Shown here: positions 49,065 through 52,988 of the stretch, piece after piece
Layout: each line of letters begins with the position of its first letter
Numbering within the stretch: the first letter of the stretch is position 1
DNA from: Acidobacteriaceae bacterium
GTDB taxonomy: Bacteria > Acidobacteriota > Terriglobia > Terriglobales > Acidobacteriaceae
NCBI GenBank assembly: GCA_003171315.1
Contig: PMYE01000200.1
Location: forward strand, 1-53,118
Length of the DNA stretch: 53,118 nt
Direction of reading: 5' to 3'
Position numbers and translations under genes: made by a program
The notes under the pieces: generated by a model
The model's input: only the letters and a program-made list of their open reading frames with translations
What the model was told of the DNA's origin: nothing
Database searches by the model: none

Positions 49065-49547
49065 TTATCCCTCCAGCCCCTTTTTCACCAACTCGCTCAC
49101 CGCGCGCCCATCGGCCCGCACTCCCGCCGCCTGCAGCTTCGCCTGCACACCCTTCATCGCCGCGCCCATCTCCTTCGGGCCGGGCTTGCGGCCCAGGTTC
49201 GCCTCCAACTCGCCCAGAACCTCCGCGACCAGCTTGGCCATCCCCGCCTCGTCCAGAGCCCTGGACAGGAACTCCTCGATGACCACGATCTCGGCCTGCT
49301 CTTTCGCCACCAGATCGGGCCGGTTGCCCTTCGCGAACTGCTCGATTGAGTCCCGCCGCTGCTTGATCATCGAGGCCAGCGCCTGCTCGCCCTCGGCCTG
49401 CGTCAGCGGAGCTCGCTTCTCAATCGCCTTGTTCTTCAGCGCGTTCTTGATCAGCCGCAGCGTGCCGGTGCGCTCGGCGTCGTGCGCCTTCATGGCAACG
49501 ACAATCTGCTGGCTGATGAGGGCTTCCAGTGCGCCCGGTTCATTCAT
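49065..49547 (-). CDS. GatB/YqeY domain protein
   Basis: ISQQIVVAMKAHDAERTGTLRLIKNALKNKAIEKR...KPGPKEMGAAMKGVQAKL. Confidence 0.93.
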   Translation of the reverse strand: MNEPGALEALISQQIVVAMKAHDAERTGTLRLIKNALKNKAIEKRAPLTQAEGEQALASMIKQRRDSIEQFAKGNRPDLVAKEQAEIVVIEEFLSRALDEAGMAKLVAEVLGELEANLGRKPGPKEMGAAMKGVQAKLQAAGVRADGRAVSELVKKGLEG

Positions 49548-49824
49548 GGATCTGCTCCTTGCTTGGAACGATTGGCCGCTTCCTTCCTGACCGCCCGCCC
49601 TCACGAGCGGTGAGTACAGAAGTTCCGGACCAAAGATGAATTGTATCGATTCGATGCACTTCGCGGGCAAATCATGGCAAACATAAGGAGAAAATCGAAA
49701 AATTCAGATTTCCACAATGAAAATACAACCACAAAAACCACAAAGTTGTGTATTATGTGATTTCACGATCCAAACCGCTATCTCCAGGGTTACAATTCAG
49801 CGCTCCAACCACGAGGAGGAACAA

Positions 49825-51000
49825 GTGATTCGCAAAACCCGTCTTTATACCCCCGGTCCAACGCCCCTCCTCCCGGCGGCCCAGTTCGCCATGGCTGCGG
49901 CTGACATGCATCACCGCACGCCCGAGTTCCGCGCCCTCTTCCAGAAGGTGCTTGCCCAGCTCAAAGTCTTTGTTGGCACAAAAAACGATGTCCTGCTTCT
50001 GGCTTGCTCAGGCACCGGCGCCATGGAGTCATCGGTCTCGAATCTGACCTCGCCGGGCGACAAAGTGCTCGTCCTCACCGCCGGCAAATTCGGCGAGCGC
50101 TGGACGGGCCTTGCCAAGGCCTTCAATCTCGCGCCGGAGGTCGTCAGCGCGCCCTACGGCCAGACCTTCGACCTTGCGGCAGTCCGCGCCGCCCTCAAGC
50201 CCGAGCACAAAGTTGTTTACATGCAGGCCACCGAGACCTCGACGGCTGTGTGCCACGATGTGCAGGCAGTCGCGAGGATCCGCGACGAAGTCGCGCCCGA
50301 TACGCTTCTGGTCGTCGACGGCATCACCGGCCTGGGCACCACATATTTCGACGTCGATGGATGGGGCATCGACGTGCTCATCGGCGGCTCGCAGAAAGCG
50401 GTCATGATTCCGCCCGGCCTCGCCTATCTCAGCATGAGTGACCGCGCTTGGGCGGCCATGGAGACCAGCAGGAATCCGCGCTACTACTTCGACCTGCGCA
50501 AGGAGCGCAAAAATGCCGCGGCGGGCGAAAGCGCCTACACGCCGGCGGTGGCTCTGGTCGCCGGGTTGGGCGCCGCGCTCGACTACATCGCCGGCCAGGC
50601 GGGCGGCGACCTCGAAAAAGGCCGCATCGCGCTCATCGACAACGCGCAGGTAAACGCCGAAGCCACACGCGCCGGCCTCACTGTGCTCGGCTTCAAGCTC
50701 TTCGCGCCCACGGCTCCGGCCGCGGCGGCCACGGCGGTCGCGGTTCCCGAAGGGATGGACTCGGGCGTCGTGGTGAGGGCGCTCAAGGCCAAGTTCGCGC
50801 TCGTCGCGGCCAACGGCCAGGGCGAGATGAAGGGCAAGATCTTCCGCGTCGCGCACCTGGGCTTCTTCGACTACCTAGACACCGTGGCCCTGCTCGGCGC
50901 CATGGAGCACATCGCCAGGGACACGCTCGGCCTGCCGGTCCAGTTCGGCCAGGCCGTCGCCGCGGCCCAGGAAGTGTATGCAAAAGCAGCGAAGGAATAG
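49825..51000 (+). CDS. class V aminotransferase (alanine-glyoxylate/serine-pyruvate type), GTG start after aggagga
   Basis: RLYTPGPTPLLPAAQFAM, HHRTPEFRALF, VVDGITGLGTTYFDVDGWGIDVLIGGSQKAVMIPPGLAYL PLP-lysine motif. Confidence 0.93.
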   Translation: MIRKTRLYTPGPTPLLPAAQFAMAAADMHHRTPEFRALFQKVLAQLKVFVGTKNDVLLLACSGTGAMESSVSNLTSPGDKVLVLTAGKFGERWTGLAKAFNLAPEVVSAPYGQTFDLAAVRAALKPEHKVVYMQATETSTAVCHDVQAVARIRDEVAPDTLLVVDGITGLGTTYFDVDGWGIDVLIGGSQKAVMIPPGLAYLSMSDRAWAAMETSRNPRYYFDLRKERKNAAAGESAYTPAVALVAGLGAALDYIAGQAGGDLEKGRIALIDNAQVNAEATRAGLTVLGFKLFAPTAPAAAATAVAVPEGMDSGVVVRALKAKFALVAANGQGEMKGKIFRVAHLGFFDYLDTVALLGAMEHIARDTLGLPVQFGQAVAAAQEVYAKAAKE

Positions 51001-51126
51001 CGGAGTTAGCGGTGTTAGCCGCGCTTCGCGCGTGTTAGCGGAGTTGGGCAAAGGCACGGGAATGTTTCCTGGCTCCGCTAACTCCGCTAACTCCGCTAGC
51101 TCCGCTAGCTCCGCATGCTCCGCTTC
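50997..51126. repeat. inverted nonamer repeat array ((A/G)CTCCGCTA-type units)
   Basis: Left arm tagcggagttagcggtgttagc...tgttagcggagttg; right arm gctccgcta actccgcta actccgcta gctccgcta gctccgcat gctccgctt. Confidence 0.95.
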
Positions 51127-51143
51127 TACGTGAAAGAGGGTTC

Positions 51144-52988
51144 ATGCCTGAACTGACTTTCGGAGAAAAGCTGCTCATCGCCCGCAAGCAGCTCGATCTC
51201 TTTCAATACGAAATGGCGGAGCGGTTGGGCGTGCATCCCAACTCGCTCACCAAGTACGAGCGCGGCGAGGGCAAGCCGCACGCTGCGGTGGTGCGGATGT
51301 TCGACCTGCTCTGCGAGAGTGAGGGCATCCGCTTTGACGACTATAAGAACGGGTCCGCCGCGGCGGACAAGGGAGCAGCCATGAAGATCGTATTGGCCGA
51401 GAAGGTTTCTCCGGCGACGCTGGCCGTGTTTGCGGGCGAGCCGGGTTGGGAAGTGAAGACGCACGACCAGTTGCCCGACGGCTTACCCGCGGCCCTTGCA
51501 GACGCCGATGCGCTCGTGGTGCGCAGCGCGGTGCAGGTGGGTGACGAGCTAATGGCGCACGCGCCCAAATTGCGCGTGATCGGCCGCGCCGGCGTGGGCG
51601 TCGACAACATCGACGCCGAAGCCGCCACGCGCCGCGGCATCGTGGTGATGAATACGCCAGGCGCCAACGCCGTAGCCGTCGCCGAGCTGACCATCGGCCT
51701 CATGGTCGCGCTGGCGCGCAAAGTGCCGGCGGCCAATGCAACCATGCACGCCGGCAAGTGGGAGAAGAAGAACCTGCAGGGCACGGAGCTGCGCGCCAAG
51801 ACGCTCGGCATTCTGGGCCTGGGCCGCGTCGGCCTGGAAGTGGCCAGGCGCGCGCGCGCATTCGGCATGGAGATCCTTGGAGCCGACCCGTTCGTCTCGA
51901 CGGCCGTCGCGCGTGAGAACGGCATCGCTCTGGTCCCCGTCGAGGAGCTCTTTGCCAAGGCCGACTATCTCACCCTCCATGTCGGCCTCACGCCGCAGAC
52001 CACGGGCATCGTCAACGCCAAAACCATCGCCGCGATGAAGAAGGGCGTGCGCATCGTCAACTGCGCGCGCGGCGAGCTGGTTTGCGATGCCGACCTGTCG
52101 GCCGCGCTCAAGAGCGGGCAAGTGGCCGGTGCGGCGCTGGACGTATTCTCCGTGGAACCGCCCAAGGACTCACCCTACTTCGAGCTCGACAACGTGATTC
52201 TCACGCCGCACATCGCCGGCTCCACAGCCGAAGCGCAGGAAGCCGTGGGTGTGCAGATTGCGCAACAGGTGCGCGAGTACCTGAAGCTCGGCGTGGTGCA
52301 GAACGCAGTGAATATGCCCTCGTTGAGCCACGAAGAGTACACCAAGCTGGCGCCGTACATTGACCTTGCCGGGAGGCTGGGCGCGTTCCTTGCGCAGGCG
52401 GGCAAAAGCGGCATCGAGGCCATTCATCTTGTTTACGGCGGCGCACTGGCCGAGGCCAAGACGGAGCTGATACGCAACGCGGCCATCGCCGGGCTGCTCT
52501 CAGGCTCTGAGAATGTGAACCGCATCAACGCGGCGGCGGTGGCTGAGGAGCGCGGCATCCGCGTGCACGAGGAGAAGGAAGAAAGCCATCGCGGCGGCGC
52601 CGCCACGGAGCTCACGGTTGTGCTGCACACCTCGCAGGGCGAGAGCCGCGCCAGCGCCACCGTCATCCACGGCGAGCAGCCGCGCCTTCTGGCCTTCGAC
52701 GGCATTGACGTCGAAGCGCCGCTCGAGGGCACCCTTGTGGTCTGCCGCAACCTCGATGTCCCCGGCGTCATCGGCCGCATCGGAACCATTCTCGGCCAAC
52801 AGGGCGTCAACATCGCCAACTTCGCGCTGGGCCGCGAACGCCTGGGTGCAACTCCCGCGGGCCAGCCCGTCAAGGCGCTCGCCGTCGTTCAGGTGGACGA
52901 GCCGGTATCCGAGTCGGTGCTCGAAGCGCTCAAGGTGATCGAAGCCCTGCTCGAAGCGCGCCTCGTCAAGCTGCCCGACGGGAAATAG
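51144..52988 (+). CDS. serA: D-3-phosphoglycerate dehydrogenase with in-frame N-terminal XRE-like HTH domain
   Basis: HTH: EKLLIARKQLDLFQYEMAERLGVHPNSLTKYERGEGKP; PGDH: IGRAGVGVDNIDAEAATRRGIVVMNTPGAN, LGILGLGRVGLEVARRA, LTPHIAGSTAEAQE; C-terminal ACT VPGVIGRIGTILGQQGVNIANFALGR. Confidence 0.9.
   Translation: MPELTFGEKLLIARKQLDLFQYEMAERLGVHPNSLTKYERGEGKPHAAVVRMFDLLCESEGIRFDDYKNGSAAADKGAAMKIVLAEKVSPATLAVFAGEPGWEVKTHDQLPDGLPAALADADALVVRSAVQVGDELMAHAPKLRVIGRAGVGVDNIDAEAATRRGIVVMNTPGANAVAVAELTIGLMVALARKVPAANATMHAGKWEKKNLQGTELRAKTLGILGLGRVGLEVARRARAFGMEILGADPFVSTAVARENGIALVPVEELFAKADYLTLHVGLTPQTTGIVNAKTIAAMKKGVRIVNCARGELVCDADLSAALKSGQVAGAALDVFSVEPPKDSPYFELDNVILTPHIAGSTAEAQEAVGVQIAQQVREYLKLGVVQNAVNMPSLSHEEYTKLAPYIDLAGRLGAFLAQAGKSGIEAIHLVYGGALAEAKTELIRNAAIAGLLSGSENVNRINAAAVAEERGIRVHEEKEESHRGGAATELTVVLHTSQGESRASATVIHGEQPRLLAFDGIDVEAPLEGTLVVCRNLDVPGVIGRIGTILGQQGVNIANFALGRERLGATPAGQPVKALAVVQVDEPVSESVLEALKVIEALLEARLVKLPDGK

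Follow-up and report, generated by a model that had tools for sequence, protein, structure and literature searches.

Natural examples of a biosynthetic enzyme that is still functional and has recently acquired a DNA-binding domain are, to our knowledge, few. The trigger enzymes named for Escherichia coli include PutA, NadR, and BirA (PMC8249747). Nearest in architecture to the protein described here appear to be BzdR, in which an XRE-type helix-turn-helix (HTH) is joined to an inactive shikimate-kinase-like domain and which senses benzoyl-CoA, and the laboratory chimera Q1, an XRE HTH on an active shikimate kinase that represses its promoter and responds to shikimate in vitro (PMC3602430). An HTH joined to phosphoglycerate dehydrogenase was found in none of the open-licence papers searched. 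Such a fusion is present in the genomic stretch of 53,118 nucleotides from an Acidobacteriaceae bacterium that was analyzed here (the window). Comparison with related loci suggests that the locus is probably a natural trigger enzyme, an HTH-SerA autorepressor of the aminotransferase-serA operon, with extra SerA supplied from an internal start.

Domain Structure of the HTH-SerA Fusion

The fusion gene (positions 51144–52988, + strand) encodes a protein of 614 residues, as read from its ORF and profile matches, and the frame contains no stop codon between the HTH and SerA. The XRE/HTH_3 domain occupies residues 1–66 (positions 51144–51341, + strand), with helices at residues 6–17, 21–28, 32–39, and 47–60, and is followed by a linker of variable length and sequence (51342–51380, + strand) that is predicted to be disordered and holds an internal Shine-Dalgarno (SD) sequence. 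The free SerA frame starts at an internal ATG (51381–52988, + strand) and has the substrate and NAD domains, ASB, and ACT of a type I phosphoglycerate dehydrogenase (PGDH). The Pfam HTH_3 profile matched the full protein with E = 5e-7 and the N-terminal 79 residues alone with E = 5e-8, PF01381 scoring 30–33 bits against a curated cut-off of 23. The TIGR01327 phosphoglycerate dehydrogenase profile matched residues 81–610 with 560 bits (cut-off 454), and PF00389, PF02826, PF19304, and PF01842 were each above their cut-offs, completing the type I PGDH domain set. The open frame and these matches bear out the initial annotation, which had read the gene as an XRE-type HTH joined in frame to SerA.

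The AlphaFold model of the whole chain was of moderate confidence (pTM 0.44) and was used for the HTH and linker only, where the HTH helices came out as expected and the linker as disordered. A Foldseek search with the HTH returned P22 c2, controller proteins, and MqsA at a probability of 1.00 with E-values of only ∼0.01, which folds of this small size commonly give; the controller proteins of restriction-modification systems were the top matches. The SerA part appears to be an intact catalytic enzyme domain with its catalytic residues kept; Arg309, Glu338, and His356 are invariant in fused and non-fused SerA relatives. The fusion protein is the sole SerA found in the draft genome (3.29 Mb, 204 contigs, 91% complete).

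A class-V aminotransferase gene (49825–51000, + strand; PF00266, E = 2.5e-19) is the first gene of the operon and lies 5′ of the fusion gene in 76 of 77 loci, which confirms the adjacency claimed earlier. Its product is the only SerC-like match in the genome and a weak one, scoring 21 bits with TIGR01364 (SerC) against a cut-off of 443.6, below what a canonical SerC would reach; the nearest profiles, BhcA and pyridoxamine-pyruvate transaminase, were also below their cut-offs. The genome seems to be without a canonical SerC. The aminotransferase may catalyze the SerC reaction despite its sub-cut-off score and likely acts as the phosphoserine aminotransferase here; as the sole SerC-like protein, it fits a two-gene serine module. 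A divergent YqeY-like gene (49065–49547, − strand) adjoins the operon, and its distance from the aminotransferase gene runs from 162 to over 2000 bp in the fusion clade, so that this junction has often been rearranged.

Conservation and Origin of the Fusion

A scan of the HTH alignment against the genomes of 85,462 species returned 72 loci, each from a record bearing the title Acidobacteria or the name of a genus within the phylum, including Terracidiphilus gabretensis and Occallatibacter savannae; the former has been transferred to Occallatibacter (PMC12935467). An in-frame fusion with a conserved HTH was found in every locus readable through the junction (71/71), and these independent loci rule out an assembly or frameshift artifact. 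The fusion also occurs in two further Acidobacteriaceae genera, g113 and g30, which are sisters of Occallatibacter, so that the conservation in relatives proposed as a check by the initial annotation was found. The other sampled genera mostly carry the aminotransferase gene and serA side by side, with the HTH absent, and their non-fused SerA begins at the homologous MKIVLAEKVSP. All fusions fall on a single branch of the SerA tree with a support of 100/100; on this phylogeny, the fusion arose once within the Acidobacteriaceae.

The dN/dS ratio was 0.093 for the HTH versus 0.098 for the first 200 residues of SerA (575 pairs). These values indicate that the HTH is translated and constrained. Its recognition-helix region is nearly invariant among the fusion loci, and it was never lost in the sampled fusion clade. 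These sequence comparisons point to selection on a DNA-binding domain within the same polypeptide as the enzyme. Another HTH, in a genome of genus g24 (G156), was considered as a relative of the fusion and rejected as an unrelated LexA-like repressor. The SerA frame ends early in three loci from draft genomes (L058, L062, and L099, at 475, 344, and 280 codons, respectively), and these stops are probably assembly or draft errors.

A Putative Operator Upstream of the Operon

The region upstream of the aminotransferase gene holds a putative operator, identified by comparison, in the form of the dyad CACAaaaacCACAaagtTGTGtattaTGTGa (49730–49760), with four CACA/TGTG boxes and an axis at 49744/49745. 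The consensus across the fusion loci is (T)TCACAnAAAnCACA-N4-TGTGTATTmTGTGATT, in which the boxes pair about an axis that precedes the first TGTG by 2.5 nt; complementarity holds in 57–66 of 66 sites. The dyad is whole in 69 of 70 upstream regions of fusion loci, the remaining one (L094) being cut by a contig end, and was absent from all 32 non-fusion upstream regions; PWM scores were at least 42.6 in the former and at most −23.9 in the latter. The flanking positions each carry at most a few tenths of a bit of information, and the distance between the dyad and the start codon ranges over 37–134 nt. With its flanks unconserved and this distance variable, the dyad does not reflect general sequence similarity. 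Its position tracks the operon even though yqeY lies 162–2179 bp away. Covariation between HTH residues and operator positions was looked at briefly, and there was too little variation to judge. Because a single branch accounts for the gain of both the fusion and the operator, their co-occurrence reflects one evolutionary event that many species have retained, as opposed to several independent gains.

Matches to the dyad with 0–1 mismatches numbered one per genome in 23 genomes of the same genus and lay at the operon wherever the context was read; one genome (G007) has the dyad with two mismatches. A wider regulon was sought, and the sampled same-genus genomes held no 0–1-mismatch site other than that of the operon, the two-mismatch matches being scattered. 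Across 201 genomes sampled from the family, perfect matches were confined to the three fusion genera and one non-fusion genome (G442), where the match has no aminotransferase gene or serA nearby, fits chance, and was discarded as an operator. The dyad, which co-occurs with the fusion and is essentially unique per genome, is well supported by comparison as its candidate operator, and this fusion-specific dyad is a new finding. Together with the conserved operon order, it lends comparative support to the autoregulated serine module suggested in the initial annotation. Many genera of the non-fusion relatives (L116–L145) share another element, CCATTATAGAAAG with a TACAAT box, 5′ of the aminotransferase gene; these may be divergent promoters of the ancestor, displaced by the operator.

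A σ70-like promoter is predicted under the dyad (49728–49756, + strand), with a −35-like ACCACA, a 17-nt spacer, and a −10-like TATTAT. The consensus in the clade is TTCACA, 17 nt, TATTCT/TATTAT, and in the −10 hexamer, T, A, and the final T are invariant across 66 of 66 unique sites. A generic consensus promoter scan of the window did not call the promoter at 49728–49756, because the −35 of the window itself (ACCACA) is weak. In g113, the −10 becomes TAAACT/TAAAAT and the dyad is retained. The axis of the dyad falls between the predicted −35 and −10, which is the usual location for a repressor.

The initial annotation had named the repeats at 50.9–51.1 kb, between the two genes, along with the promoter region, as targets for a check of binding by the fusion. 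The array is real, consisting of 9-nt repeats of the TAACTCCGC type with a 27-nt inverted arm (50998–51131), but it belongs to a dispersed genomic family (66 matches across the genome to an 18-nt probe from it) and is unconserved at this site in relatives, and it was therefore ruled out as the operator. Some relatives have other short repeats, of the GCTAGAAGCTAG type, between the aminotransferase and fusion genes.

The Internal Start of SerA

The internal ATG at 51381 and the SD sequence AAGGGAG at 51369–51375 (+ strand) are present as previously described. The linker is variable among the fusion loci except just 5′ of this ATG, where the consensus is AAGGGAG. Codon −3 was analyzed in 69 fusion loci after near-identical ones had been removed. 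This third codon before the ATG encodes Gly in 68 of the 69, as GGA in 56 and GGG in 12, making GGA or GGG the choice in 68/68. By comparison, the share of GGA plus GGG at 50 conserved Gly columns of the gene has a median of 20%, with the next highest at 71%, and Gly sites elsewhere in the fusion gene are mostly GGC; the mean pairwise dS among the loci is near 0.75. The anti-SD duplex has a mean energy of −8.8 kcal/mol for the internal site and −6.4 kcal/mol for the upstream start; in 65 of 69 loci, the internal SD is the stronger of the two. The invariable GGA/GGG at codon −3 shows nucleotide-level selection for initiation inside the gene, and the internal start and its SD are under such selection in Occallatibacter and g113. 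The alternative start proposed by the initial annotation thus holds strictly in these two genera, by the synonymous constraint on the SD, and is weakened in genus g30, where the SD is weak in three of seven loci.

Proposed Mechanism and Alternatives

Taken together, the sequence comparisons suggest that the genes of the fusion enzyme are very probably under its own control. The common ancestor of Occallatibacter and its two sister genera would have acquired an XRE HTH in frame at the 5′ end of serA, and a cognate operator would have become established across the promoter of the aminotransferase-serA operon. The most likely scheme is that full-length HTH-SerA, either dimeric or as part of the SerA tetramer, binds the dyad, blocks RNA polymerase between the −35 and −10, and so represses its own operon; since a protein on the dyad would cover the site of the polymerase, repression is more likely than activation. 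This repression is probably tuned by serine or substrate bound to the protein, with HTH-SerA binding the operator in one of its two states, ligand-bound or ligand-free. Among the serine contacts described for M. tuberculosis SerA (PMC6300728), the equivalents of Asp463 and Asn481 in ACT are invariant and the Tyr461 position is Asn; the contacts are only partly kept, and serine as the effector is consequently uncertain. Translation of the same mRNA from the retained internal start would add SerA that lacks the HTH, so that the supply of enzyme would not be tied one-to-one to the repressor. Here we infer DNA binding, a repressing as opposed to an activating role, the identity of the effector, and the existence of two forms of the protein. 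It is also conceivable, if on balance improbable, that HTH-SerA and free SerA co-assemble and that only tetramers with enough HTHs grip the four-box operator. Repression would then read the amount and the serine-bound state of the assembled enzyme, a metabolic enzyme thereby counting itself.

The single evolutionary event behind the co-occurrence of fusion and dyad would also be compatible with binding of the dyad by some other regulator, and the invariant T, A, and T of the −10 mean that the motif is partly plain promoter sequence and might be merely an unusual promoter, the HTH having another role, such as tethering SerA to DNA or binding elsewhere. We regard this as unlikely: a promoter leaves the outer TCACA/TGTGA boxes and the dyad symmetry unexplained, g113 retains the dyad despite its changed −10, the non-fusion relatives are without the motif, and the near-absence of further genome copies is what is expected of a self-contained local regulator. 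Activation of its own operon by the fusion has a similarly small chance of being correct. XRE proteins can activate, for example the restriction-modification controller proteins that head the Foldseek matches, and the −35 is imperfect; however, the axis of the dyad inside the 17-bp spacer favors occlusion, and no site lies further upstream.

More doubt attaches to the second protein form. If the fusion protein alone were made, the internal SD would be left over from the start of the ancestral serA or would act as a translational pause site, and the non-fused ancestor did have its start and SD exactly at the internal site; the weak SD in three of the seven g30 loci would fit as well. A relic is nevertheless hard to reconcile with GGA/GGG in 68 of 68 loci at a dS near 0.75, with mostly GGC used elsewhere and a freely varying linker around it, and we consider such an account rather doubtful. 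That the HTH is a non-functional fossil of a chance fusion, carried along with the enzyme, is scarcely credible and appears already disfavored by the constraint on the domain: its dN/dS of ∼0.09 is that of the enzyme, it has not been lost in the sampled clade, and its recognition-helix region is nearly invariant.

Comparison with Known Systems

An HTH-SerA autorepressor, and with it a new trigger enzyme, is the best reading of these sequence data. The fusion and its operator predict control of serine synthesis in abundant soil Acidobacteria, a subject on which nothing published was found. Like PutA, NadR, and BirA, the fusion is an enzyme with a DNA-binding domain, and the control predicted for it is likewise local, often single-target control of its own pathway; those proteins differ in their enzymes and DNA-binding domains, with no phosphoglycerate dehydrogenase among them. 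We know of no internal start that makes free enzyme in PutA, NadR, or BirA.

The SerA of M. tuberculosis (1YGY, 3DC2, and 3DDN) has the same order of catalytic, ASB, and ACT domains but is without an N-terminal HTH, whereas the fusion has Asn in place of the Tyr461 serine contact and lacks the triple-glycine hinge. With small XRE autoregulators such as controller proteins, MqsA, and HipB antitoxins, the fusion shares the HTH fold and a dyad over its own promoter, to which its binding is predicted; those are free-standing or antitoxin proteins, unfused to a biosynthetic enzyme. BzdR and Q1 have in common with it an N-terminal XRE HTH, a linker, and a metabolic enzyme fold, and the promoter repression and ligand-modulated binding that they display are proposed for the fusion. 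Unlike BzdR, however, the fusion is the only SerA of its cell, keeps its catalytic residues, is predicted to control its own biosynthetic operon, and contains an internal start.
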